The notes beneath the pieces are model-generated. The model saw only the letters and a program-made list of their open reading frames with translations. It searched no databases and was not told where the DNA came from. Below, piece by piece: positions 1 through 64,000 of a stretch of DNA of 64,000 nt; the first letter of the stretch is position 1; each line of letters opens with the position of its first letter. Source of the stretch: Apostichopus japonicus (taxonomy: Eukaryota > Echinodermata > Holothuroidea > Aspidochirotida > Stichopodidae); NCBI RefSeq assembly GCF_037975245.1, contig NC_092570.1, positions 13,652,501-13,716,500 on the forward strand, read 5' to 3'. Made by a program: the position numbers and the translations under genes.

Positions 1-3000
1 TTTTTGCATTGGGCCTAACTTTATGCACTGCTCTGATTCAAAATCTGCTTTTTGCATTGGTCCTAACTTTATGCACTGCTCTGATTCAAAATCTGCTATT
101 TGTATAAGGCCTAACTTTATGCACTGCTCTGATTCAAAATCTGCTTTTTGTATTGGGCCTAACTTTATGCACTGCTCTTATTCAAAATTTGTTTTTTGCA
201 TTGGGCCTAACTTTATGCACTGCTCTGATTCAAAATCTGATATTTGCTTTAGGCTTAACTTTATGCACTGCTCAAGATTATTCAAAATCTGCTTTTTGCA
301 TTAGGCCTAACTTTATGCACTGCTCTTATTCAAAATCTGCTATTTGCATTAGGCCTATAACTTAATGCACTGCTCTTATTCGAAATCTTCTATTTGCATT
401 AGGCCTATAACTTTATGCACTGCTCTGATTCAAAATCTGATATTTGCATAAGGCCTACCTTTATGCACTGCTCTGATTCAAAATCTGCATTTTGCATTAG
501 GCCTAACTTTATCATTTATGCACTGCTCTGATTCAAAATCTGATATTTGCATTAGGCCTAACTTTATGCACTGCTCTGATTCAAAATCTGCTTTTTGCAT
601 TAGGCCTAACTTTATGCACTGCTCTGATTCAAAATCTGCTTTTTGCATTAGGCCTAACTTTATGCACTGCTCTGATTCAAAATCTGCTATTTGCATTAGG
701 CCTATAACTTTATGCACTGCTCTGATTCAAAATCTGCTATTTGCATAAGGCCTACCTTTATGCACTGCTCTGATTCAAAATCTGCTATTTGCATTAGGCC
801 TAACTTTATCATTTATGCAGTGCTCTTATTCAAAATCTGCTATTTGCAGTAGGCCTAGCTTTATGCACTGCTCTGATTCAAAATCTGATATTTGCATTAG
901 GCCTAACTTTATGCACTGCTCTTATTCAAAATCTGCTATTTGCATTAGGCCTATAACTTTATGCACTGCTCTGATTCAAAATCTGCTATTTGCATTAGGC
1001 CTATAACTTTATGCACTGCTCTGATTCAAAATCTGCTATTTGCATAAGGCCTACCTTTATGCACTGCTCTGATTCAAAATATGCTATTTGCATTAGGCCT
1101 AACTTTATCTTTTATGCACTGCTCTTATTCAAAATCTACTTTGTGCATTAGGCCTATAACTTTATGCAATGCTCTGATTCAAAATCTGCTATTTGCATAA
1201 GGCCTAACTTTATGCACTGCTCTTATTCAAATTTTGCTATTTGCATTAGGCCTAACTTTATGCACTGCTCTGATTCAAAATCTGCTATTTGCATTAGGCC
1301 TAACTTTATGCACTGCTCTGATTCAAAATCTGCTTTTCGCAATTAGGCCTATAACTTTATGCAATGCTCTGATTCAAAATCTGCTATTTGCATAAGGCCT
1401 TACTTTATGCACTGCTCTTATTCAAAATCTGCTATTTGCATTAGGCCTAACTTTATGCACTGCTCTGATTCAAAATCTGCTTTTTGCATTAGGCCTAACT
1501 TTATGCACTGCTCTGATTCAAAATCTGCTTTTCGCATTAGGCCTAACTTTATGCACTGCTCTTATTCAAAATCTGCTATTTGCATTATTCCTAACTTTAT
1601 GCACTGCTCTTATTCAAAATCTGCTATTTGCATTGGGCCTAACTTAATGCACTGCTCTTATTCAAAATCTGCTTTTTTGCATTGGGCCTAACTTTATGCA
1701 CTGCTCTTATTCAAAATCTGCTATTTGTATAAGGCCTAACTTTATGCACTGCTCTTATTCAAAATTTGCTTTTTGCTTTGGGCCTAACTTTATGCACTGT
1801 TCTGATTCAAAATCTGCTTTTTGCATTTGGCCTAACTTTATGCACTGCTCTTATTCAAAATTTGCTTTTTGCATTGGGACTAACTTTATGCACTGCTCTG
1901 ATTCAAAATCTGCTATTTGCATTTGGCCTAACTTTATGCACTGCTCTGATTCAAAATTTGCTTTTTGCATTGGGACTAACTTTATGCATTGCTCTGATTC
2001 AAAATCTGCTATTTGCATATGGCCTAACTTTATGCAAATAGCAGATTATTCAAATCTGCTTGTTGCATTAGGCCTAACTTGAGGCACTGCTCTTATTCGA
2101 AATTTGCTTTGTGCATTAAGCCTAACTGTATGCACTGCTCTGATTCAAAATCTGCTTTTTGCATTTGGCCTAACTTTATGCACTGCTCTTATTCAAAATC
2201 TGCTTTTTACATTAGGCCTAACTTTATGCACTGCTCTTATTCAAATTCTGCTTTTTGCATTAGGCCTTACTTTATCATTTATGCACTGCTCTGATTCAAA
2301 ATCTTCTATTTGCATTAGGCCTAACTTTATGCACTGCTCTGATTCAAAATCTGCTTTTTGCATTAGGCCAAACTTTATGCACTGCTCTTATTCAAAATCT
2401 GCTATTTGCATTATTCCTAACTTTATGCACTGCTCTTATTCAAAATCTGCTATTTGTATAAGGCCTAACTTTATGCACTGCTCTTATTCAAAATTTGCTT
2501 TTTGCTTTGGGCCTAACTTTATGCACTGCTCTGATTCAAAATCTGCTTTTTGCATTTGGCCTAACTTTATGCACTGCTCTTATTCAAAATTTGCTTTTTG
2601 CATTGGGACTAACTTTATGCACTGCTCTGATTCAAAATCTGCTATTTGCATTTGGCCTAACTTTATGCACTGCTCTGATTCAAAATTTGCTTTTTGCATT
2701 GGGACTAACTTTATGCATTGCTCTGATTCAAAATCTGCTATTTGCATATGGCCTAACTTTATGCAAATAGCAGATTATTCAAATCTGCTTGTTGCATTAG
2801 GCCTAACTTGAGGCACTGCTCTTATTCAAAATTTGCTTTTTGCAATAGGCCTTACTTTATGCACTGCTCTGATTCAAAATCTGCTTTTTGCATTAGGCCT
2901 AACTTTATGCACTGCTCTTATTCAAAATCTGCTTTTTGCATTAGGCCTAACTTTATGCACTGCTCTTATTCAAATTCTGCTTTTTGCATTAGGCCTTACT

Positions 3001-5480
3001 TTATCATTTATGCACTGCTCTGATTCAAAATCTTCTATTTGCATAAGGCCTTACTTTATGCACTGCTCTTATTCAAAATCTGCTTTTTGCATTAGGCCAA
3101 ACTTTATGCACTGCTCTTATTCAAAATCTGCTATTTGTATAAAGCCTAACTTTATGCACTGCTCTTATTCAAAATTTGCTTTTTGCTTTGGGCCTAACTT
3201 TATGCACTGCTCTGATTTTAAATCTGCTTTTTGCATTTGGCCTAACTTTATGCACTGCTCTTATTCAAAATTTGCTTTTTGCATTGGGACTAACTTTATG
3301 CACTGCTCTGATTCAAAATCTGCTATTTGCATTGGGCCTAACTTTATGCACTGCTCTGATTCAAAAGTTGCTTTTTGCATTGGGACTAACTTTATGCATT
3401 GCTCTGATTCAAAATCTGCTATTTGCATATGGCCTAACTTTATGCAAATAGCAGATTATTCAAATCTGCTTGTTGCATTAGGCCTAACTTGAGGCACTGC
3501 TCTTATTCAAAATTTGCATTTTTCAATAGGCCTTACTTTATGCACTGCTCTGATTCAAAATCTGCTTTGTGCATTAAGCCTAACTGTATGCACTGCTCTG
3601 ATTCAAAATCTGCTTTTTGCATTAGGCCTAACTTTATGCACTGCTCTTATTCAAAATCTGCTTTTTGCATTAGGCCTAACTTTATGCACTGCTCTTATTC
3701 AAAATTTGCTTTTTGCATTAGGCCTTACTTTATCATTTATGCACTGCTCTGATTCAAAATCTTCTATTTGCATTAGGCCTAACTTTATGCACTGCTCTTA
3801 TTCAAAATCTGCTTTTTGCATTAGGCCAAACTTTATGCACTGCTCTTATTCAAAATCTGCTATTTGCATTATTCCTAACTTTATGCACTGCTCTTATTCA
3901 AAAGCTGCTTTTTGCATTAGGCCTAACTTTATGCACTGCTCTTATTCAAAATTTGCTTTTTGCAATAGGCCTTACTTTATGCACTGCTCTGATTCAAAAT
4001 CTGCTTTTTGCATTAGGCCTAACTTTATGCACTGTTCTGATTCAAAATCTGCTATTTGCATTATTCCTAACTTTATGCACTGCTCTTTTCAAAATCTGCT
4101 ATTTGCATTAGGCCTAACTTTATGCACTGCTCTTATTCAAAATCTGCTATTTGCAGTAACCCTAACTGTATGCACTGCTCTGATTCAAAATCTGCTATTT
4201 GCATTAGGCCTAACTTTATGCACTGCTCAAGATTATTCAAAATATGCTTTTTGCATTAGGCCTAACTTCATGCACTGCTCTTATTCAAAATTTGCTTTTT
4301 GCAATAGGCCTTACTTTATGCACTGCTCTTATTCAAAATCTGCTATTTACATTAGGTCTAACTTTATGCACTGCTCTTATTCAAAAGCTGCTTTTTGCAT
4401 TAGGCCTAACTTTATGCACTGCTCTTATTCAAAATCTGCTATTTGCAATAGGTCTTACTTTATGCACTGCTCTGATTCAAAATCTGATATTTGCATATGG
4501 CCTAACTTTATGCACCGCTCTGATTCAAAATCTGCTATTTGCATATGGCCTAACTTTATGCAATGCTCTGATTCAAAATCTGCTATTTGCATTAGGCCTA
4601 ACTTTATGCACTGCTCTTATTCAAAATCTGCTATTTGCATTAGGCCTATAACTTTATGCACTCCTCTTATTCAAATTTTGCTATTTGCATTAGGCCTAAC
4701 TTAATTCACTGCTCTGATTCAAAATCTGCTATTTACATTAGGCATAAATTTATGCACTGCTCTTATTCAAAATCTGCTATTTGCATTAGGCATAAATTTA
4801 TGCACTGCTCTTACTTAAAATCTGCTATTTACATTAGGCATAAATTTATGCACTGCTCTTATTCAAAATCTGCTATTTGCATTAGGCATAACTTTATGCA
4901 CTGCTCTTATTCAAAATCTGCTTGTTGCATTAGGCCTAACTTTATGCACTGCTCTTATTCAGAATCTGCTATTTGCATTAGGCCTAACTTAATTCACTGC
5001 TCTGATTCAAAATCTGCTATTTACATTAGGCATAAATTTATGCACTGCTCTTATTCAAAATCTGCTATTTGCATTAGGCATAAATTTATGCACTGCTCTT
5101 ACTTAAAATCTGCTATTTACATTAGGCATAAATTTATGCACTGCTCTTATTCAAAATCTGCTATTTGCAATAGGCATTACTTTATGCACTGCTCTTATTC
5201 AAAATCTGCTTGTTGCATTAGGCCTAACTTTATGCACTGCTCTTATTCAGAATCTGCTATTTGCATTAGGCCTAACTTTATCATTTATGCACTGCTTTTA
5301 TTCAAAGTCTGCTATTTGCAATAGGCATAAATTTATGCACTGCTCTTATTCAAAATCTGCTTGTTGCATTAGGCCTAACTTTATGCACTGCTCTGATTCA
5401 GAATCTGCTTTTGCATTAGGGCCTAACTTTATGCACTGCTCTGATTCAAAATCTGCTATTTGCATTAGGCCAACTGTATG
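1..5480. repeat. 48-bp satellite array, about 114 units
   Basis: Tandem repeat with a 48-bp consensus unit that begins near TTTATGCACTGCTCTGATTC and ends in a GCATTAGGCCTAAC-like segment. It starts at or before base 1 and stops near 5480. Single-unit variants (GATTC/TATTC, CTATT/CTTTT, CCTAAC/CCTATAAC) are mixed throughout. Longer periods are visible: a block containing an AGCAGATTATTCAAATCTGC variant recurs at about 2040, 2769 and 3450 (steps of about 729 and 681 bp, differing by one unit), and another recurs with a step of about 288 bp near 4700 and 4985. Because 48 is divisible by three, long open frames with a 16-residue repeat appear on both strands; I do not treat them as genes. The array lies on the 3' side of the minus-strand Arg/Ser-rich gene, probably in an intron. 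Confidence 0.95.
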
Positions 5481-5917
5481 CACTGTAGAGTGTGAGGTCA
5501 TGACCTCATGACTGGGTGAACAGTGAATGAACCAAGGTCTGAATGATCATGTGACACCCAAGTTTTGACTATTTCACCTGGGTCCTCTCTTGGGAACTAC
5601 TAATGGGTTAGAATACCAAATGGGTAGGAGTACTGGAGTCAATCCAAAATAGATCAATTCATTTCTATCCACTACTGATAATGACAAATTCTTGAGACAA
5701 TCTCATAGAAAGATGATCTGTAAAGTGAAATCCAAATTCATTAAGTTTGTCTTACTTAAAACCAAATTTAAAAAAAAAGAAGAACAGCCACCAGTAAGAC
5801 TACTTGACATGTTTTTCTTGCTCTCCACATGTCTCTCTCTTTTTCCTTTCTTATTATTTTTTCCTTTCTTATTATTTTCCCCGCTGCATAATATTGATGG
5901 GCACCTTCATTTCTTAC
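5481..5917. other. non-repetitive spacer, no gene seen
   Basis: Sequence between the end of the satellite and the last recognisable minus-strand exon of the Arg/Ser-rich gene. It holds A- and T-rich runs and pyrimidine-rich stretches. I saw no convincing exon or poly(A) site. It is probably the start of the intron that contains the satellite. Confidence 0.5.
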
Positions 5918-22169: not shown

Positions 22170-23977
22170 TTCCATAGTAACGTTCTACACAAGGCTTTCA
22201 TATATAGCCTAACACTCACTGTAAATGACCTCTGGCACAACAGTAACGTTCTACACAAGGCTTTTATATATTACCTAACATTCACTGTAAATGATCTCTG
22301 GCACAATAGTAACGTTCTAAACAAGGCTTTATACATAGCCTAACACTCACTGTAAATGACCTCTGGCACAACAGTAACGTTTTACACAAGGCTTTTATAT
22401 ATAGCCTAACACTCACTGTAAATGACCTCTGGCACAATAGTAACGTTCTACACAAGGCTTTTATATATAGCCTAACACTCACTGTAAATGACCTCTGGCA
22501 CAATAGTAACGTTCTACACAAGGCTTTTATATATAGCCTAACACTCACTGTAAATGACCTCTGGCACAATAGTAACGTTCTACACAAGGCTTTTATATAT
22601 TACCTAACATTCACTGTAAATGCCCTCTGGCACAATATAACGTTCTACACAAGGCTTTTATATATAGCCTAACACTCACTGTAAATGACCTCTGGCACAA
22701 TAGTAACGTTCTACACAAGGCTTTTATATATAGCCTAACACTCACTGTAAATGACCTCTGGCACAATAGTAACGTTCTACACAAGGCTTTTATACATAGC
22801 CTAACACTCACTGTAAATGACCTCTGGCACAATAGTAACATTATACACAAGGCTTTTATACATAGCCTAACACTCACTGTAAATGACCTCTGGCACAAAA
22901 GTAACGTTATACACAAGGCTTTTATACATAGCCTAACACTCACTGTAAATTACCTCTGGCACAATAGTAATGTTCTACACAAGGCAGTTATATATAGCCT
23001 AACACTCACTGTAAATTACCTCTGGCACAATAGTAACGTTCTACACAAGGCTTTTATATATAGCCTAACATTCACTGTAAATGACCTCTGGCACAATAGT
23101 AACGTTCTACACAAGGCTTTTATATATAGCCTAACACTCACTGTAAATGACCTCTGGCAAAATAGTAACGTTATACACAAGGCTTTTATATATAGCCTAA
23201 CACTCACTGTAAATGACCTCTTGCACAATAGTAACGTTCTACACAAGGCTTTTATATATAGCCTAACACTCACTGTAAATGACCTCTGGCACAATAGTAA
23301 CGTTCTACACAAGGCTTTTATATATAGCCTAACACTCACTGTAAATGACCTCTGGCACAATAGTAGCGTTTCTACACAAGGCTTTTATATAGAGCCTAAC
23401 ACTCACTGTAAATGACCTCTGGCACAATAGTAACGTTCTACACAAGGCTTTTATATATAGCCTAACACTCACTGTAAATGCCCTCTGGCACAATAGTAAC
23501 GTTCTACACAAGGCTTTTATATATAGCCTAACACTCACTGTAAATGACCTCTGGCACAATAGTAACGTTTTACACAAGGCTTTTATACATAGCCTAACAC
23601 TCACTGTAAATGACCTCTGGCACAACAGTAACGTTTTACACAAGGCTTTTATATATAGCCTAACACTCACTGTAAATGACCTCTGGCACAATAGTAACGT
23701 TCTACACAAGGCTTTTATATAGAGCCTAACACTCACTGTAAATGACCTCTGACACAACAGTAACGTTCTACACAAGGCTTTCATGTACAGCCTAACACTC
23801 ACTGTAAATGATCTCTGGCACAATAGTAACGTTCTACACAAGGCTTTTATATATAGCCTAACACTCACTGTAAATGACCTCTGGCACAATAGTAACGTTC
23901 TACACAAGGCTTTAATATATAGCCTAACACTCACTGTAAATGACCTCTGGCGCAATAGTAACGTTCTACACAAGTTC
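22170..23977. repeat. 66-bp tandem array, about 27 units
   Basis: The unit runs CTCTGGCACAATAGTAACGT ... CACAAGGCTTTTATATATAG ... CACTCACTGTAAATGAC. Identity between units is high, with one- or two-base variants. The length is 22 codons, so minus-strand frames stay open for more than 200 residues; these are artefacts of period. On the minus strand nearly every unit has TATATAAAAGCC, a close match to a TATA box, and CAGTGAGTG, which resembles a 5' splice site. The array passes directly into the 90-bp array. Confidence 0.95.
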
Positions 23978-24960
23978 TACAAAAGTTTCTACAGAGTTGT
24001 CAGGTATTTCTCTACTTCCTGCCTGTCTTATCAATCTCGTTATCAGGTATTCCTCTACTATAAACCTGTTTTAAGTTTCTACAGAGTTGTGAGTTATTTC
24101 TCTACTTCCTGCCTGTCTTATCAATCTCATTATCAGGTATTCCTCTACTATAAACCTGTATTAAGTTTCTACAGAGTTGTCAGGTATTTCTCTACTTCCT
24201 GCCTGTCTTATCAATCTCGTTATCAGGTATTCCTCTACTATAAACCTGTTTTAAGTTTCTACAGAGTTGTGAGTTATTTCTCTACTTCCTGCCTGTCTTA
24301 TCAATCTCATTATCAGGTATTCCTCTACTATAAACCTGTATTAAGTTTCTACAGAGTTGTCAGGTATTTCTCTACTTCCTGCCTGTCTTATCAATCTCAA
24401 TATCATGTATTCCTCTACTGTAAACCTGTATTAAGTTTCTACAGAGTTGTGAGGTATTTCTCTACTTCCTGCCTGTCATATCAATCTCATTATCAGGAAT
24501 TCCTCTACTATACACCTGTATTAAGTTTCTACAGAGTTGTGAGATATTTCTCTACTACAGAGTACAGACATGTATATAAATATCTGCCAAGTTGTAGGTA
24601 TTCATCATCATAGGTACCTGTATCAAGTTTCTACTGACTTGTCATGTATTTCTCTAAAACAGACCTATATTAAGTATCTGCTGAGTTGTCAAATATTTCT
24701 CAACTAGGTATCTGTATTAAGTATCACAATTATCAGGTATTCTTCCACTATCAAACAGTATTGGGTTTCTGAAGAGTTGTGATAATATATTTTTCTACTA
24801 CAGATATGCATTAAGTTCCTGCTGGGGGTATCCCTATACTACCCACCTGTATTTAATATGTATCACCATTATCGAGTATTCCTCTAATACCACCCTGTAT
24901 CAAGTTTCTACTGAGTTTTAAGGTATTTCCCTACAACAGACCTGTATTAAGTATCTGTTC
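23978..24960. repeat. 90-bp tandem array, decaying to the right
   Basis: About seven units start with TTTCTACAGAGTTGT between about 23985 and 24540. The first ones alternate in pairs (CAGGT/GAGTT, CTCGTT/CTCATT), giving a 180-bp period. From about 24560 to 24960 only degraded units remain. The unit shares the CTGTATTAAG...GAGTTGTCAGGTATT skeleton with the neighbouring 51-bp array and with the end of the coding exon at 26110-26150. Confidence 0.9.
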
Positions 24961-26122
24961 ACAGCTGTGAGGTATTCCTCACTACTAGGTACCTGTAATA
25001 AGTATCTGTTCACAGCTGTGAGGTATTCCTCACTACTGGGTCCCTGTATTAATTATCTGTTCACAGATGTGAGTTATTCCTCACTACTAGGTACTTGTAT
25101 TAAGTATCTGTTCACAGCTTGAGGTATTCCTCACTACTAGGCACCTGTATTAAGTATCTGTTCACAGCTGTGAGGTATTCCTCACTACTAGGTACTTGTA
25201 TTAAGTATCTGTTCACAGCTTGAGGTATTCCTCACTACTAGGCACCTGTATTAAGTATCTGTTCACAGCTGTGAGGTATTCCTCACTACTAGGTACCCTG
25301 TATTAAGTATCTGTTCACAGCCGTGAGATATTCCTCACTACTAGGTACCTGTATTAAGTATCTGTTCACAGCTGTGAGGTATTCCTCAATACTAGGTACC
25401 TGTATTAAGTATCTGTTCAAGGCTGTGAGATATTCCTCACTACTAGGTCCCTGTATTAAGTATCTGTTCACGGCTGTGAGGTATTCCTCACTACTTAGGT
25501 ACCTGTATTAAGTATCTGTTCACAGCTGTGAGGTATTCCTCACTACTAGGTACCTGTATTAAGTATCTGTTCACAGCTGTGAGGTATTCCTCACTACTAG
25601 GTACCTGTATTAAGTATCTGTTCACAGCCGTGAGATATTCCTCGCTACTAGGCACCTGTATTAAGTATCTGTTCACAGCTGTGAGGTATTCCTCGCTACT
25701 AGGCACCTGTATTAAGTATCTGTTCACAGCTGTGAGGTATTCCTCGCTACTAGGCACCTGTATTAAGTATCTGTTCACAGCCGTGAGGTATTCCTCGCTA
25801 CTAGGCACCTGTATTAAGTATCTGTTCACAGCCGTGAGGTATTCCTCACTACTAGGTACCTGTATTAAGTATCTGTTCATAGCTGTGAGGTATTCCTCAC
25901 TACTAGGTACCTGTATTAAGTATCTGTTCACAGCTGTGAGGTATTCCTCGCTACTAGGCACCTGTATTAAGTATCTGTTCACAGCTGTGAGGTATTCCTC
26001 ACTACTAGGTACCTGTAATAAGTATCTGTTCATAGCTGTGAGGTATTCCTCACTACTAGGTACCTGTATTAAGTATCTGTTCACAGCTGTGAGATATTCC
26101 TCACTACTAGGTACCTGTATCA
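24961..26122. repeat. 51-bp tandem array, about 22 units
   Basis: Unit GTGAGGTATTCCTCACTACT followed by AGGTACCTGTATTAAGTATC and TGTTCACAGCT. Seventeen codons per unit keep both strands open for about 200 residues. The minus strand reads through ACTTAATACAGGTACCTAG in each unit. The right end merges without a break into the last coding exon of the WD-repeat gene. Confidence 0.95.
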
Positions 26123-32300: not shown

Positions 32301-35300
32301 ACCTCCTCGGCTGCTTCTCTTCTTTTCTCCCATTTTTTCTTTATCTCGGCCAGTTCGCTACCTTTTTTCTTCTTTATTTCTGCTGCAGATTCGTCGCTGA
32401 AATAAATCTGTAATGGATCATAACGAGGTAGACCCTTGAAAAGTATTCCGAACACCGAAAGATGAAACTAGGCGCAATTGGTGTCAGAGCAGAATGTAGC
32501 ACCGAGAAGCTTAGGCTTCGCAGAACTGTCCGATTGTAAACGTTAGAGTAGCCTACATGCGAACATTCTTCGCGATGAAGCTGGATAGTGCGATGTATAA
32601 ACAACGAAGAGTTTGCTGTACACAAAGACCACGAAACCACCGATCTACAACATATATGGCAGCTTAAGGAGTTTCTGAAAACATATCGAATTTATAAGAA
32701 ATTTCACCGAAAATTAAGGAAGAAATTAATCTGTATACAAACGCAATTTTTGTTGTGATTACTGTAGGTACTGTACGGAGCATGGGTTATGTCGCAATCT
32801 GCATTAGCGTAGATGACGTAACGTTCTGTACTGTTCAAATCACATTGGAAATGTCCATCCTTAACGATTAAAAAATTGTTTCTCTGTCAAACGCAACATT
32901 AGCGTTCTCATACTTTGACAACATGTTTGGAAAATTATTTATCATTTTTAAGGTAACTTCTTTTGGCCACCAGACAATCCTTAAGCTTAAATGTCATAGT
33001 GTTGAGAGTAGGGTGTGGGGCAGGGGAGGGGGGTGAGGTGGGTGGGTGGGAGGGAGGGTAATAAACAGCTGTACTATGTTTCGTGCTGATGCGAACAAAA
33101 ACATATTTGTTGGTCAAAGACAGTGACACAAGGACACATGATGCAGTAAAGTCTGCGACCAGAAATAGACCCGGAATAAAACCACTACAGCAGATTTTCG
33201 GTACTGGAATCCATACTCTTACTTGAGGTTTTTTTTTTTTTTTTACGTTCTCAGAGTTTGTACTTCGAGAAAGTAAATTTCATGTACTCATTATTGCATA
33301 CTCAAATTTGTACTCAAGTTTGCTGCATTACACTATTCCATTTATTTAGTGCCAATTCCAGACTAAAATAATATCAAATCACTTTACGATGTACAATCGC
33401 AGACTTGTTGTCAACTTCAGGTTTCAAATAGCTTAAACTAAACATAATATTGCACGCAAGGTTTACATCACATAACAAGGATTACGTTAAAATGAACGCA
33501 TTATCATCTTTTAACATTCAAACGTAAACTTAAACATAATATTGCACGCATGGCTTACATCACATAACAAGGATTACGTTAAATGAACGCATTATCATCT
33601 GTAAAAATTCAAACGTAAACCTAAACATAATATTGCACGCAAGGTTTACATCCCATAACAAGGATTACGTTAAATGAACGCATTATCATCTGTAAAAATT
33701 CAAACGTAAACCTAAACATAATATTGCACGCAAGGTTTACATCCCATAACAAGGATTACGTTAAATGAAAGCATTATCATCTGTAAAAATTCAAACGTAA
33801 ACCTAAACATAATATTGCACGTAAGGTTTACATCCCATAACAAGGATTACGTTAAATGAACGCATTATCATCTGTAAAAATTCAAACGTAAACTTAAACA
33901 TAATATTGCACGCAAGGTTTACATCACATAACAAGGATTACGTTAAATGAACGCATTATCATCTGTAAAAATTCAAACGTAAACTTAAACATAATATTGC
34001 ACGCAAGGATTACATCCCATAACAAGGATTACGTTAAAATGAACGCATTATCATTTGTAAAAATTCAAACATATACTTACCACCTTGTCTTCGTGCTCAT
34101 TAATCTCGTAAACTCTCTCGGCCAGGAAGAGGCTGTATTTTTGATGAGGTCGAAACCATCCAAAATGGCTCAAATTGTTCCTATCGGTAAAAGACAGTCA
34201 TGGATGTTTACTCTTTGGCTGGTTTGACAAAAAAACTACCTCAACAATTCCTCATAGTTGAGTAACTTTTTATGAAAGTGCAAACAACAATCCAAGATGT
34301 TAGGTGTCCAACAAACACTTTAAAAAAATCAAAAAAAAAACTTTCCATTTTACCTAAGACCCAGTTTCCTCAAACCAGAAGCAATGATGAGCTATTATTC
34401 AGGAATTACCAGCAATGAGTTGCTTAGAATTTGATTAAATTCTGGGTGGTTTGCAATAGGAGCAAGTAGTGACAAACTTTGCCCATGTGACTTGTGGCCC
34501 ATAAAAATCCTACGTTTGCCAATTGACTTTTGTGTTGCATATGAGGAAAGTGACAACAGTGTCGCTTAAAGGGTGTGAAGACTCGCGCAAAAAGAAATGT
34601 CTAATGCCGGTAAGCTGACCTAGTTTCGAATGAGGTGTAACAAAAGTGTTAGACACCACCATCGATGCCAAAATATACGGACACAGCTTGCTACCTTCGG
34701 TAATTAGACACTAGTGTACAGTCAATACATACAGCTGCCGTCAATATACCCACAGCACAGTATACAAACGATACAGTGAAGGACATCTCAGATCCAGCTA
34801 AAGATAACAATTAAGGTATCACGTTTCATTACTGTCTGCATTTTGTAGCGACAAGCAGAAAACTTCACTTACAAGCAACGGAAAGTTAACTTTTTCAGAG
34901 CATGGCACGTGGTTTGGGGCGAGTCTTCAATGCCTTTAAGTCATTTATGAAGAGCTACCCGTTGCTACATGAGAGGTAGCAGACAGCTACCTGTTGCTAC
35001 ATGAGAGGTAAACAAACAATGATGACAATACCTGTCGTATTTCCAAACAAAGATATTTCCGGCAGTATCCACGGTGACCATATCATCAAAGTTACTAATG
35101 AATCCCACACAGATGAGGGGCACCCTATGACCTCGGAATAACTCCCCTCTGATGTCCTGGCCGAGGTAGTTATCTCTCGGAACTGAAATCTGCCAACACA
35201 AAATCAGGAAATGTATGACAAATGAGCAGATTTTTGTCAGTGGTCACACCATGGATGAGACAGACAAAAGTTGGTGAGTATTATTTGGAACTAGAGAATA

Positions 35301-38300: not shown

Positions 38301-41300
38301 TCAAACGTGCATGCTTTTTATTCTTCATACTCATCTATATTGTATTTTATTCTGCAGTTTTATTACATATTATGTGTCATATATATTTTTTTTTTACTGT
38401 TACATAGCGTTTTAGAGCACTTTTTTGGATTTTACGCTTCATAAAATAAATTATTATTAAAATTATTAAATGATGGTTCTCACCAGCCTGAAAATTAAAG
38501 TCGTTCTCCTGATCGTCCATGGTGATTAGCAGGGTCAGTTGGGGCGGTACAGAATCGGTGCTGGTATTCTTCACAAGGTCCAACTCCTTAGCATCTTTCA
38601 CCAGTCTTCTACCGGGAAGGGTTGACCATACTCGAAGCATTCCCTGTTAAAATCAGAAACCAACAACCTTCTACATGTTAAAACAGGGTTTTGGGTTTCA
38701 TTCAATGTTTTCCAAAAAAACAAAATGGCAGTTTTTCTGCTTTATGTGTTAAATTTAAACATCTAATAAAAAAAAATAAATAAATAAAATGTGCATAAGT
38801 ATTAAAATCGAATGCAACAATATTTTACCTAGCTTCTTTAAATTGTGACACTGTACAACAGTGGCAGGATGGAGAGAGGGGGGAGGGAGGGCAGCTTATC
38901 CCTTCTTCCCCCTGTTCCTATGCTTGATGCCATAGGTTGTGTTGAAAAGGTACATTTTGTTGTGTAAGGCGACCAAATTTAATGTTTATTTACCAAATAA
39001 AGAATTCATGAACCAGAAAACTGTCAGGAAACGAAGAAACAATTAGGTAGAATCGGCATAAACCGGGAGAAGCATCTTGAGCTCCACCAATTGATCTAGT
39101 CAGCCCTTACTTGGTAATTATCTCTCTAAACCATGGATGTGCTCTGAATCGGGATACCAATTTCAGATACAGTAACTTTGTTACCAGAGATAAACCAATT
39201 TATTGTTAATGGTTTTATGTGCTGTTCTGAGGAAGTCTGTTCCTTTAAAAAAAATTGTTTTGTCATTATATCATCTTGAAGTAAAATTCCAGCAGACTTT
39301 TTTTGAGCTTTTGGTTTCGATAATATTCAGGTGGCTTATTCACAGAGGAAAGTAATATTTCTACAAAGAAACTTTTCATTTTAACAAAGAGAAATACAGA
39401 GAAAAGGCCAACAAAGCAAACTTTTAAAAGCAAGGTTAACAACTTCCATTTCAGGCATAAGTCAATAAGAACCTAATGCTAGGAAGGTAACACCTCCAAG
39501 AACAACTTCCACGACGTTATTTCAGACTACCTATTGTGTTCTACTCTATGGATGATGAGTCAAGGGTGTAGCCAGTGAAAATAGCTTAAATTCAATCAAC
39601 AATTTCTTCATTAATGGACAAGATATTGAGATGGGGGATTTCATCAAACGCTGTGAAATATTTTGAACTTTTAATGAAATCCCTACATCGTCTACAAATG
39701 TAATGTCACTTTAAAGCAAACAAGAAAGAGGAAATTAACCGACAAATTATCACAAAGGTTTACTTACGGAATCATTGACATTCATAATTCTATTTCCATC
39801 TAAACTCCATGTGAGGCTGATGAGTGGGTCACCGAGGGCACTTTCATTCCTGATATACCTCACTGCTTGAGGCTGGTCTTGCATCAAACTGTATGTGATG
39901 ATATCTCCTGCAAGAGACATGTCACAGAAAGTGACTTAGTATTTAACAAGGACAGGGTATGTTCATAGATGGTGATGTGACGATATCTCCTGCAAGAGAC
40001 ATGTCACAGAAAGTGACTTAGTATTTAACAAGGACAGGGTATGTTCATAGATGGTGATGTGACGATATCTCCTGCAAGAGACATGTCACAGAAAGTGACT
40101 TAGTATTTAACAAGGACAGGGTATGTTCATAGATGGTGATGTGACGTTATCACCTGCAAGAGACATGTCACAGAAAGTGACTTAGTATTTAACAAGGACA
40201 GGGTATGTTCATAGATGGTGATGTGATGATATCTCCTGCAAGAGACATGTCACAGAAAGTGACTTAGTATTTAACAAGGACAGGGTATGTTCATAGATGG
40301 TGATGTGATGATATCTCCTGCAAGAGACATGTCACAGAAAGTGACTGAGTATTTAACAAGGACAGGGTATGTTCATAGATGGTAATGTGATGATATCTCC
40401 TGTAAGAGACATGTCACAGAAAGTGACTCAGAATTTAACAAGTACAGGGTATGTTCATAGATGGTAATGTGATGATATCTCCTGTAAGAGACATGTCACA
40501 GAAAGTGACTTAGAATTTAACAAGGACAGGGTATGTTCATAGATGGTGATGTGATGATATCTCCTGCAAGAGACATGTCACAGAAAGTGACTTAGTATTT
40601 AACAAGGACAGGGTATGTTCATAGATGGTGATGTGATGATATCTCTTGCAAGAGACATGTCACAGAAAGTGACTTAGTATTTAACAAGGACAGGGTATGT
40701 TCATAGATGGTAATGTGATGATATCTCCTGCAAGAGACATGTCACAGAAAGTGACTTAGTATTTAACAAGGACAGGGTATGTTCATAGATGGTGATGTGA
40801 TGATATCTCTTGCAGGAGACATGTCACAGAAAGTGTGACTTAGTATTTAACAAGGACAGGGTATGTTCATAGATGGTAATGTGATGATATCTCCTGCAAG
40901 AGACATGTCACAGAAAGTGACTTAGTATCTAACAAGGACAGGGTATGTTCATAGATGGTGATGTGATGATATCTCTTGCAAGAGACATGTCACAGAAAGT
41001 GACTTAGTATTTAACAAGGACAGGGTATGTTCATAGATGGTGATGTGATGATATCTCCTGCAAGACATGTCACAGAAAGTGACTTAGTATTTAACAAGGA
41101 CAGGGTATGTGCACAGACGGTGATGGGAAGGGTGCAGAATGTCAAGGTATCATGTGTGGATGTGACTAGGGGTGGGAGAGGAGGAGGGGAGGGGGAAATA
41201 TGTGTTGGAGTGAGTGGGTGGGGCCTTTGGTCTTCTTGTCATAGGGAACTTCTGAAAGTATGCTCATACATAATTGTAAATATGAGAATCTTTCTAGTAT

Positions 41301-44300
41301 TCCACAAGAATGTGTCAATGTTCCCTAGTTTTGAACTATACGAGAGACCGCCTTATCTAGCTGTCTTCCCTCTGCTGTAAATCCATCCAATCTTAATTCC
41401 GCTCAGTAACATGAGCAGGAGATTATGTATTTCGGGGATGTTTAATATTTCTCCTGTATATGGCTACATCATCAAAACTATGACATTTTCAAATGCAAAT
41501 CATGATGTTTTCAATGCAGGCTTGACTTTGTATTGCATTGAGTTTCACCTCAGTTCACCTCAAGTATGCTCACCTTTCATGGTACCGACAGCTATCTGCT
41601 GTTGATTAGCAGAAACTTCTACTGCAGAGACACCAATCACCTTCTTATTGATGTTCAACAATGTTGACTCTATAGTAAATTGCTGTAAAATAATGAATAA
41701 AATGCCCCCAAAAAGAAGAAGAAGAAAACACAATGGGTCAATAAAAAGTAACATATTATAAACCATAATGCCGAAAAAATGTTAACAAACAATAATAATG
41801 TGATAAAAACAAGTGAATCTGCATTTGTTTATTGTGTATATTCGATAGGATCTAGGCACAGTTTTCAGCCATTAGAAATACACCCAAATAGTGGAACTTG
41901 TTGTAATGAATGTACAGTGTCCCAATGGCTCAACGATTTTGAGGCAGTTTTCTTTTTGCGGTATGCTTCCTAAATTCAAACTTCACATGTCCCCCTGCCA
42001 TTTCCAAGAGTGCCCCACTCCCACCCCCCACTCCCACCCGCCCCCCCACCCACCAGATTAAATCCTCCTCCACACTCCTCTGCCCTCTTCTCTTGCTGTT
42101 CTCTCATGCAAAATGAATTAATTCTGTCACTTACTTTCCAGCACTCGATTTCGTGATGTTTATAAATTCTAAAGGCGGGGACATCTTCGATAAAGTTCAA
42201 ATCGAAGGTTCTTAATGAAAGAAAATTGAGTTGCTGAGTATCTGGATCAAGAAGGGCCAAAGCTCCTGCTGGTTGAACAGCATCTGATGTTTGTAACAGT
42301 TGCGTGTGCTGCCAAATGTTTTTCCTGCAGTGAACAAGAAAGACTGTTGTATATGACAGTTACAAAAGACAGTTTTGAACACACTGTTGTCTAACAACTA
42401 AACTTCATTCATAGACTTGATACATATAGTACAAGTACACTAATGGAAAAATAACTGCCAGTGGGTATGTGCTGGGGCTTCAATTTTATTTTGGATGAGG
42501 AGTCGAGGGTGGGAGAGGGAGGAAGGGGAGGGGCCGGAGGAAGGGGAGGGGCTAACTTGTGTTGGCAGTACAACTAGGCTAATGATTAAACAACTGGGAG
42601 TGAGTGAACCTCGGGCATCGTCTTTTTTTTTGGGGGGGGGGTGAAGAATGGGGAACACTTGTGTGTCTTGCCCCATCAATACAACGCACTAGCAGTACAG
42701 CTAGTCTATTAAATGGGAAATTAATATGAGTGGGTTTGCTGAGGGGAGGGGGGGGGGGTTAGGGAGGAGGTGCACAGCCATCTTTCTTTATCATATACAA
42801 TCTTTAAAAGTTCTTTAAATGTGCTTACTTGTCTTACCACATTGTCAATATATTCTTCGTCACAGAGTGCTATGATCACAGGATAGAACCAATCATTATT
42901 GACAAATTTGTTCAATGCCAATGGGATCAGTAGTTAGTATTTTCATCTATAATACCAATCGGTTGACAAGAACAATAGCACAAGGATGATTTTCATTCTT
43001 ATTCCCTTGGCCTTGCCCCTCCTCACCCCCCCCCCCCACATACCCATCAACTGTAAGAGAAAGTATATGAATATGCATAAATTTGTGATGATTCAAACTT
43101 CACATATATACTCTTCTAAAGTTTGCTAATTGTTACATAAACACAAACTCACCTCTTGGATTGCCTCTCTGTAACCATATGATGGTACGTTCCTGTCACA
43201 AGATCATAAGCTGGGTCGTCCCTACCCCGGTTTCCCACGACGGCCGTCTCAGCGGACCTAATAATGATCTGCTCCATTTGCCAGAGTATGTAACGCTCAC
43301 AGTTTACGGGCTCCAGTACGGTACTACATACCGACTCGGCCGGACGCCGGTCCAGCAGATCCTCTGAGAGTGGATTGGCTAATTTTTGCTGATCCTGTTG
43401 CGATTCTCTTTCTTCCCTGTTCTGTTTCCTTGCTTTGAGTTGGAATTCCGAAATGTCTACAATCTTTTGGAATTGTTCCTCTTCGGATTTGTCCACTGCA
43501 TTGTTGATGAGGTGCACTAGTAACTCTCTTATCTGTAACCAAAATGAGAAAATCCCTTTTAGCTATGACACGTACAGGTGATAAGATCTCTAGGTAACAC
43601 AGGGGGTATGACAAAGGTAGCTACTAGCTATGACAAAGGTAGCTATGACAAAGGTAGCTATGACAAAGGTTATCAAATGCTGTATAGTTATAAAAGGAAG
43701 GGGACGCTGATAGCAATGATATCACCAAAAGGCAATGAAACTTAGTAGTTAGCATCACTGAAAGCAATGAAACTAAGTATCACCAAAAGCAATGAAACTA
43801 AGTATCACCGAAAGCAATGAAACTTAGTAGTTAGTATCGCTGAAGTCAATGAAACTGCGTAGTTAGTATTACTGGAAGCAATAAACTAAGTATCACTGAA
43901 AGCAATGAAACTGAGTAGTTAGTTTCACCAAAAGCAATGAAACTGAGAAGTTAGCATCACTGAAAGCAATGAAACTAAGTATCACTGAAAGCAATGAAAC
44001 TAAGTATCACTGAAAGCAATGAAACTAAGTATCATCAAAAGCAATGAAACTTAGTAGTTAGCATCACTGAAAGCAATGAAACTAAGTATCACCAATAGCA
44101 ATGAAACTTAGTAGTTAGTATCGCTGAAGTCAATGAAACTGCGTAGTTAGTATTACTGGAAGCAATAAACTAAGTATCACTGAAAGCAATGAAACTGAGT
44201 AGTTAGTTTCACCAAAAGCAATGAAACTGAGAAGTTAGCATCACTGAAAGCAATGAAACTAAGTATCACTGAAAGCAATGAAACTAAGTATCACTGAAAG

Positions 44301-47300
44301 CAATGAAACTAAGTATCATCAAAAGCAATGAAACTTAGTAGTTAGCATCACTGAAAGCAATGAAACTAAGTATCACCAAAAGCAATGAAACTAAGTATCA
44401 CCAAAAGCAATGAAACTAAGTATCACCGAAAGCAATGAAACTTAGTAGTTAGTATCGCTGAAGTCAATGAAACTAAGTATCACCAATAGCAATGAAACTT
44501 AGTAGTTAGTATCGCTGAAGTCAATGAAACTGCGTAGTTAGTATTACTGGAAGCAATAAACTAAGTATCACTGAAAGCAATGAAACTGAGTAGTTAGTTT
44601 CACCAAAAGCAATGAAACTGAGAAGTTAGCATCACTGAAAGCAATGAAACTAAGTATCACTGAAAGCAATGAAACTAAGTATCACTGAAAGCAATGAAAC
44701 TAAGTATCATCAAAAGCAATGAAACTTAGTAGTTAGCATCACTGAAGTCAATGAAACTAAGTATCACCAATAGCAATGAAACTTAGTAGTTAGTATCGCT
44801 GAAGTCAATGAAACTGCGTAGTTAGTATTACTGGAAGCAATAAACTAAGTATCACTGAAAGCAATGAAACTGAGTAGTTAGTTTCACCAAAAGCAATGAA
44901 ACTGAGAAGTTAGCATCACTGAAAGCAATGAAACTAAGTATCACTGAAAGCAATGAAACTAAGTATCACTGAAAGCAATGAAACTAAGTATCATCAAAAG
45001 CAATGAAACTTAGTAGTTAGCATCACTGAAAGCAATGAAACTAAGTATCACCAATAGCAATGAAACTTAGTAGTTAGTATCGCTGAAGTCAATGAAACTG
45101 CGTAGTTAGTATTACTGGAAGCAATAAACTAAGTATCACTGAAAGCAATGAAACTGAGTAGTTAGTTTCACCAAAAGCAATGAAACTGAGAAGTTAGCAT
45201 CACTGAAAGCAATGAAACTAAGTATCACTGAAAGCAATGAAACTAAGTATCACTGAAAGCAATGAAACTAAGTATCATCAAAAGCAATGAAACTTAGTAG
45301 TTAGCATCACTGAAAGCAATGAAACTAAGTATCATTGAAAGCAATGAAACTAAGTATCACTGAAAGCAATGAAACTAAGTATCACCGAGAGCAATGAAAC
45401 TAAGTATCACTGAAAGCAATGAAACTTAGTAGTTAGCATCACTGAAAGCAATGAAACTAAGTAGTTAGCATCACTGAAAGCAATGAAACTAAGTAGTTAG
45501 CATCACTGAAAGCAATGAAACTAAGTAGTTAGCATCACTGAAAGCAATGAAACTAAGTATCACTGAAAGCAATGACACTAAGTATCACAGAAAGTAAAGA
45601 AACTGAGTTGTTAGTATCATTGAAAGCAATTAAACGAATTATCACTGAAAACAATGAAACTAAGCATCACCGAAAGCAATGAAACCGAGTAGTTAGCATC
45701 ACCGAGAGCAATGAAACTAAGTATCACCAAAAGCAATGAAACTAAGTAGTTAGCATCACTGAAAGCAATGAAACTAAGTATCACCAAAAGCAATGAAACT
45801 AAGTATCACAGAAAGCAATGAAACTGAGTATCACTGAAAGCAATGAAACTAAGTATCACCAAAAGCAATGAAACTTAGTAGTTAACATCACTGAAAGCAA
45901 TGAAACTAAGTATCACTGACTGCATTGAAACTAAGTATCAAAGAAAGCATCGAAACTTAGTAGTTAGCATCACTGAAAGCAATGAAACTAAGTATCACCG
46001 AAAGCAATGAAACTTAGTTTCACCAAAAGCAATGAAACTAAGTTTCAACAAAAGCAATGAAACTTAGTAGTTAGTATCGCTGAAAGCAATGAAACTAAGT
46101 CGTTAGTATTACTGGAAGCAATGAAACAAAGTATCACCAAAAGCAATGAAACTAAGTATCACCAAAAGCAATGAAACTAAGTATCACAGAAAGCAATGAA
46201 ACTTAGTATCACTGAAAGCAATGAAACTAAGTATCACCAAAAGCAATGAAACTTAGTAGTTAACATCACTGAAAGCAATGAAACTAAGTATCACTGACTG
46301 CATTGAAACTAAGTATCAAAGAAAGCATCGAAACTCAGTAGTTAGCATCACTGAAAGCAATGAAACTAAGTATCACCGAAAGCAATGAAACTAAGTATCA
46401 CAGAAAGCAATGAAACTTAGTATCACTGAAAGCAATGAAACTTAGTATCACAGAAAGCAATGAAACTTAGTATCACTGAAAGCAATGAAACTAAGTCGTT
46501 AGTATTACTGGAAGCAATGAAACTAAGTATCACTGAAAGCAACGGAACTGAAGTGCACTGAAAGTAACGAAAAAGTATTGAAAGCGATGAAAATACAGTC
46601 AGTACCACTGCAAGCAATAAAACTTTGCATCACTGGCAGCTGTGAAATATAGTATCGTTGAAACCAACAAGAAAATATCAATCACGTAATGGAGTAGTAT
46701 TGATTTTGTTTGTTAGAATAAATGATTCAAATCCTTAAAATTACCAAATAGTACTCCGGTGCCTGCCATGATGATATTACAGTTTCTGGGGAGATGAAAT
46801 TTGTCGAACGCCTTCCGAGTTGTTCCAAATTCTCTGCCGATCGAGACAAATCTGATTCATCTCTTTTTGGCAAACTTGAGTCTTGATCTAAATACAAAAA
46901 AAAAAAAAAAACGAAGAAAAAAAGCAGATGAGATAGACAGAGCTACAGGAGTGTAGGTAGAATTGAGTAAAAATGAAATATTTGTAAAATTTGATATATA
47001 ATTCATATATAAGATGACATCACAGAAAATAAAAAAAAACTCATATCATGGCAGAGATATATATTAAGAAGTAGACTGGTTCGTGATATTACTGCCTTTT
47101 GTTTTATGATATGACACAGATGATATAACAATAACAGCGACGTCTGTTATCTTAATTGGCTGCTATTTACTTCATTTCTACATACTGGCTTCTATGTGTA
47201 GAGCTGTACTAATACTCAATATAACTGCTTCAAGGCTACCACCTATTCTAACAAAGGCACACCATTTTCTTTGGGGGGGGAGGGTGGGATGGGGCAGGGG

Positions 47301-63761: not shown

Positions 63762-63854
63762 GTTAGTCGTAACTTTCTTATTTTTTATTCTATTTTTTAA
63801 CAGATACAGATGTAAGGCTGTATTATCAGTCAAGGATGCATGACTTTCAGCACA

Positions 63855-64000
63855 GAATTCATTTTGATTTATTGCTGACTGCTAGAATTCATTTTCATTT
63901 ATTGCAGACTGCTAGAATTCATTTTGATTTGTTGTAGACTGCTAGAATTCATTTTCATTTATTGCAGACTGCTAGAATTCATTTTGATTTGTTGTAGACT
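63855..64000. repeat. 30-bp tandem repeat at the right edge, five or more units
   Basis: Units TGCTAGAATTCATTTTCATT plus TATTGCAGAC alternate with a GATTTGTTGTAGAC version, giving a 60-bp period. Each unit on the plus strand is pyrimidine-rich and ends TTTATTGCAG or TTGTTGTAG, like a 3' splice site. It lies in the intron after exon 6 of the timeless-like gene and continues past the window. Confidence 0.9.

Follow-up and report, generated by a model that had tools for sequence, protein, structure and literature searches.

An 82-bp minisatellite spans the intron 7/exon 8 border of a WD-repeat-like gene in an echinoderm genome

Results

We show that, within the 64,000-nucleotide stretch of Apostichopus japonicus DNA analysed here (the window), an 82-bp sequence lying across the intron 7/exon 8 border of a WD-repeat-like gene stands in 15 near-identical tandem copies, and that this array is not singular in that similar arrays, different in sequence, lie across further exon borders of the genome. 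Neutral minisatellite turnover, tolerated through exon definition, is the account that fits best. In particular, the array is probably a splice-junction minisatellite of the kind termed a 'mirage', which arose by chance duplication over the border, expanded and stayed harmless through exon definition; we also infer that the last copy is used in transcripts and that the upstream copies (decoys) are silent.

The host gene is read from the minus strand. Exon 7 (41574..41682) ends with AAAG before a GTGAGC donor and leaves phase 1; intron 7 (39908..41573, 1666 nt) contains the 14 decoys; exon 8, as numbered in the first-pass annotation (39768..39907, 140 nt), starts with GA (GAGATATC), ends with GATTCC followed by the donor GTAAGT, and has an open frame in phase with exon 7; intron 8 (38644..39767, ~1124 nt) leads to exon 9, which begins GGAATGC at 38643. 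Exons 7 and 8 join in phase to give WD-repeat-like sequence (AVGTMKGDIITYS at the joint), and the three exons joined read ...QQQIAVGTMKG-DIITYSL...WSLDGNRIMNVNDS-GMLRVWSTL, which is WD-repeat-like over both joints. The exon 8 peptide has a single match in the 671.6-Mb genome, namely exon 8 itself. Attempts to name the gene by Pfam and PDB sequence searches and with a joined approximate translation gave just weak generic beta-propeller matches, those in Pfam falling below the curated cut-offs. The donor of exon 8 itself (TCC before GTAAGT) is under threshold according to generic splice-site weights. A short C-rich array (CCCCACTCCCACC, 13 bp × 3.4) was also reported by Tandem Repeats Finder (TRF) at 42013-42055, within the intron that separates exon 6 from exon 7.

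TRF, run on the window, placed the array at 39893..41125 (period 82, 15.0 copies, 96% matches, score 2266), and unit alignment on the minus strand resolved 15 complete copies from 41122 to 39893, each of 80–84 bp and with 0–5 differences from the true copy; taking both together, we place the minisatellite at 39893..41122. The unit comprises the end of the intron, the acceptor (TGTCTCTTGCAG in the consensus) and 15 nt from the start of the exon at 39907..39768, and the exon-derived part (consensus GAGATATCATCACAT, 0–3 changes) is present in 15/15 units. About 28 nt upstream of that part the consensus carries TACTAA, which we take to be a putative branch site. The alignment was run as a refutation test of the proposal that this is a satellite built from a 3′ splice site with the exon edge in its unit, and it places the exon edge inside the unit. 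The exon start is indeed repeated in every unit, over 15 nt by alignment rather than the ~16 coding bases first estimated: GAGATATCATCACAT is followed by ACAG in the exon as against CACC or TACC in the array. As had been proposed, the full exon follows the last copy only; sequence runs on into exon 8 at u15 alone, and in the 14 other copies CACC or TACC follows, leading to another unit.

The true acceptor is therefore that of u15, the intronic part of which (39908..39974) carries the putative branch region, a pyrimidine tract and TGTCTCTTGCAG, and the '~15 near-identical decoys' of the first-pass annotation are more precisely 15 units made up of 14 upstream decoys and the true site, with the AG moved by one base in three decoys. 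These three, u2 (40961..41042), u4 (40795..40878, 84 bp, with an insertion) and u6 (40631..40712), have CAAG; CAG is kept in the remaining 11/14. Three of the 14, u5 (40713..40794), u7 (40549..40630) and u11 (40221..40302), are identical to the true copy across all 82 bp. As regards the escape of edge copies from homogenisation, a mirage trait, five differences each are found in the edge copy u1 on the intron side (41043..41122, 80 bp, CAG kept) and in the internal copies u4 and u9. Some variants are common to neighbours: TTACAG in u8 (40467..40548) and u9 (40385..40466), and ATCGTC in u13 (40057..40138) and u14 (39975..40056), both of which keep CAG and have one change in the exon-derived part. 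CAG is likewise kept in u3 (40879..40960), u10 (40303..40384) and u12 (40139..40220), the last with three changes in the exon-derived part. Matches to the 82-bp unit in the 671.6-Mb genome number at least 15 (genome-wide unit counts being lower bounds throughout) and all lie inside the array at 39893..41122.

At the outer joint, CACAT^ACAG on the exon side and CCCAT^CACC on the intron side have 3 bp (CAT) in common, an overlap that is consistent with ordinary tandem duplication and is too short to serve as evidence alone. A 6-bp joint homology (CATCAC) was rejected on inspection, since the unit would then have to be shorter than it is; a homology of 3 bp agrees with it. Minisatellites abound in the window, where TRF found six other large arrays, at 3-5485, 22174-23974, 24940-26120, 33434-34079, 43754-46572 and 63854-64000, with units of 48, 66, 51, 91, 25-284 and 30/60 bp respectively.

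Generic weights, which were not obtained by training on the genome at hand, give the 11 CAG decoys and the true site the same score (3.39). On the minus strand of the window 90 AG sites score at least as high as the true site, compared with a mean of 52 in 20 base shuffles, and 12 of the 90, the true one included, lie inside the array, where ~1.7 would be expected at the mean density of the window. Joined to exon 7 at the true border, the frame is open to the end of exon 8; joined to any of the 11 CAG decoys, which are those that the read-through to a stop codon covered, it meets a stop within the unit after 51 codons, 15 of them beyond the joint. Since CAG-decoy mis-splicing leads to this early stop, the resulting mRNA would presumably be destroyed. 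Two further ideas were discarded. An RNA hairpin over the acceptor as the reason why decoys are skipped was rejected because the fold is unexceptional (z = −0.94, 36/200 shuffles as stable) and the folded unit is the same sequence in true and decoy copies; and the 25-bp array at 43754..46572 does not qualify as a second decoy array, just two of its sites reaching the score of the true acceptor.

We then considered other exon borders of the genome, in a sample of 160 exon-like hits: 30 of 150 WD40 matches taken as 3-kb loci, 100 more WD40 matches taken as ~600-base regions, and 30 of 134 kinase matches. The remaining 20 WD40 matches were skipped because they lie in or beside stretches already taken; some hits come from the same gene, and some of the stretches touch or share sequence. 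Junction arrays were judged by eye, TRF arrays being read against open frames. On this basis 8/160 hits carry a clear junction-spanning array (seven donor, one acceptor), and three weaker cases bring the number to 11/160. The clear acceptor case, L029 (C14:16091359-16092952, minus strand), has a 73-bp unit in 22 copies in the genome, which includes ~25 nt of exon and is without other genome match. One of the clear donor cases is L121 (C9:5797586-5801471, minus strand; 72 bp, 54 copies in the genome, 3.9 kb), whose unit holds ~60 nt of exon end plus GTGAGTG; the others are L022 (35 bp, ~41 copies), L028 (1659-2421, 53 bp × 14.6, with only ~4 nt of exon), L055 (31 bp × 15.9), L096 (116 bp, at least 2.5 copies), L105 (110 bp, at least 1.9 copies, the region ending inside the array) and L157 (29 bp, four copies). 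We regard as weaker L092 (acceptor; one decoy, with next to no exon sequence), L114 (donor, with degenerate copies) and L134 (430-602 on the hit strand; 83 bp, at least 2.1 copies, ~5 exon-like nt in common). The own donor of L134 looks to be GC (AAAG|GCACGT), while GT is present in the copy that follows it downstream (AAAG|GTACGT). In seven further loci (L009, L027, L069, L077, L097, L122 and L136) arrays lie near exons and, by eye, do not include the border.

A cross-locus control of the 11 junction cores was clean (0/318 locus-strands) for eight; the others were L022 (2), L092 (3) and L028 (44), the 11-base core of the last being too short to inform. Junction-core copy counts are lower bounds, as best-match mode skips imperfect copies and missed the L092 decoy. 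By best natural single-stretch PDB match, L029 is SKI8/WDR61-like and L028 is PRPF19-like, both matches standing behind designed or many-repeat proteins, whose scores sum over repeats; the PDB sequence search gave no name for the L121 gene. Further sampled hits are presumably DAW1, WDR47, DCAF11, NLE1, coronin and EIPR1. The PRPF19-like gene, a splicing factor by name, itself carries a donor array.

To set junctions beside deep intron, TRF coverage was computed over junctions placed automatically (111 donors and 128 acceptors), with 10/160 hits that have an in-frame stop, L055 among them, left out, and with the far bins (300-1200 nt) drawn from the 60 longer loci. On the donor side arrays cover 4.5% of bases at +0..5 as against 11% at 300-1200 nt, the donor figures being low because L055 is left out and L022 is misplaced; on the acceptor side they cover 1.6% of the last six intron bases as against 5-7% at 300-1200 nt. 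A stricter junction call (62 donors, 113 acceptors) gives 3.2% versus 11-17% for donors and 1.8% versus 5-7% for acceptors. We make no claim from the donor/acceptor asymmetry (seven versus one clear case), because in deep intron, too, arrays cover roughly twice as much on the donor side as on the acceptor side.

Discussion

We suggest that the array may have started when a tandem duplication happened by chance over the intron 7/exon 8 border. With the original border preserved and the extra copy lying in the intron, such a duplication would have done no harm, and unequal exchange or slippage could later have expanded and homogenised the array. Between large introns the splice sites nearest to each other across the exon are preferred (PMC9225289). 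Exon 8, which lies between introns of 1666 and ~1124 nt, would thus have its splice sites paired across the exon, and the last copy, as the 3′ site nearest the donor of exon 8, would be favoured even though identical sites are transcribed earlier. More generally, the last copy of an acceptor array and the first copy of a donor array would win by position, identity of sequence notwithstanding, and growth of an array, by lengthening the intron, may push recognition further towards exon definition.

Several other readings have to be weighed against this one. That the copy number or the entire array is an assembly artefact has some general grounds, in that tandem arrays are prone to mis-assembly and one published mirage was aberrantly assembled in a draft genome (PMC3087553); considering that the units here carry private variants, some common to neighbours, rather than being exact stacks, and that arrays elsewhere in the genome are built alike, we judge it most improbable. 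We give equally little credence to the notion that the true exon edge lies elsewhere and that the apparent start of exon 8 is part of an intronic satellite, since the border at 39907 joins exons 7 and 8 in phase into WD-repeat-like sequence (AVGTMKGDIITYS), exon 8 continues in phase into exon 9, and the match between array and exon is limited to 15 nt.

Regulated use of the decoys, each of which would yield an early-stop transcript so that the array works as a tunable off-switch with its strength set by copy number, accords with 11/14 decoys keeping CAG at a score equal to that of the true site, with all 11 leading to a stop at the same codon, and with the human IFI6 minisatellite, which supplies alternative donor sites that are in use (PMC4526556). 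We nevertheless consider it unlikely, given that three of the 14 decoys read CAAG and that several show changes at further positions of the unit, that the same type of array occurs at unrelated genes of the genome, and that amphioxus mirages are reported to be without effect on regular splicing (PMC3087553, PMC3902484). Somewhat less likely still is that splice junctions actively seed tandem arrays, minisatellites being born there and not merely tolerated. The eight clear cases in 160 exon hits and the privacy of the unit to its locus in both arrays searched genome-wide (L029 and L121) would agree with seeding, yet TRF coverage is lower at junctions than 300-1200 nt away, and the stricter junction call points in the same direction; the rarity of arrays at junctions relative to deep intron, in what is a small sample, favours a general minisatellite process over splice-site seeding.

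Canestro et al. in 2002 are said to be the reference for amphioxus mirages. Tandem repeats over exon–intron borders are described under that name in amphioxus globin genes (BflGb6 and BflGb9), Adh3, TnC and PGBD5, and Adh3 data together with globin RT-PCR suggest that they leave regular splicing undisturbed (PMC3087553, PMC3902484). Mirages are minisatellite-like copies of a border at either exon end, many, although not all, of which keep AG or GT; the exon 8 array likewise has a minisatellite unit length, a unit spanning the border with exon bases, and a splice signal kept in many copies. BflGb6 is an acceptor case as here, differing in having a unit of 150–160 bp in six or three units in two haplotypes (PMC3087553, PMC3902484), whereas the exon 8 array has an 82-bp unit in 15 copies. 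The host here is, by mitochondrial gene order, an echinoderm and not a cephalochordate, the lineage in which mirages were described but to which the definition does not confine them. On contig C35 (16,099 bases) cox1, identified by Pfam, comes first, and the ORFs of the initial 9,000 bases, as read here, continue with nad4L, cox2, atp6, cox3, nad3, nad4, nad5 and nad6 in reverse, which is the gene order of echinoderms. A GFP search directed at an amphioxus origin gave no hit and carries no information, all 14 control genomes being likewise without one; ARAGORN with the bacterial code gave no tRNA on C35, a result that was set aside. The structure is accordingly of a known kind, and what is new is the lineage (the echinoderm phylum) and a rough frequency; in the open-licence literature, outside which most subscription papers fall, we found no report of mirages in echinoderms.

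Turri et al. in 1995 reportedly described a minisatellite with multiple splice donors in human IFI6 (6-16). In this gene, minisatellite donor sites are present and two downstream units are used as donors (PMC4526556). IFI6 resembles the exon 8 array in that a minisatellite unit bears a splice site at an exon border, and differs in being a donor case with units in use; here the site is an acceptor and all 11 CAG decoys would bring a stop, and the closing of the frame after every one of them argues against protein isoforms of the IFI6 type. Minigenes with duplicated splice sites in competition are reportedly the subject of Lang and Spritz in 1983, Kuhne et al. in 1983 and Reed and Maniatis in 1986. 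There, too, identical tandem splice sites compete for one partner; the exon 8 array, by contrast, is natural, has 14 competitors and lies in an animal genome. Internal tandem repeats at exon–intron borders of human segmental-duplication genes may alter splicing and form new introns (PMC2812944); of the internal repeats in those genes as a whole, half fall within coding regions and the product is changed by many, unlike the case of exon 8, which is left whole. Earthworm metallothionein introns were considered as a like case and set aside, as the text consulted describes intronic minisatellites and no border-spanning unit (PMC12783039).

A broader proposal, towards which we lean neither way, is that splice-junction minisatellites are pervasive in this genome (at ~1 exon in 20) and perhaps in ambulacrarian and cephalochordate genomes, exon definition freeing splice sites to amplify. 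If so, such genomes would offer a natural collection of competing donors and acceptors that are exact duplicates, in copy numbers from 2 to more than 50, from which site choice by position alone could be read in RNA. At exon 8, where 14 competing acceptors (11 of equal score and three identical over 82 bp) are transcribed before the true one, the gene would fail if the first site to appear were always taken, and would not if sites are paired across the exon. Given a large number of such genes, long-read RNA from wild animals could show, with no need of constructs, how position weighs against sequence in splice-site choice, and the rough frequency (eight clear cases, 11 with the weak ones, in 160) makes the phenomenon testable at scale. 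Junction arrays may also provide sequence from which new introns and exons arise, an idea put forward for amphioxus (PMC3087553).

A separate observation made in the course of the genome searches concerns contig C29 (31,219 bases), which holds five cox1-like fragments and is perhaps a mitochondrial duplicate or a mis-assembly.
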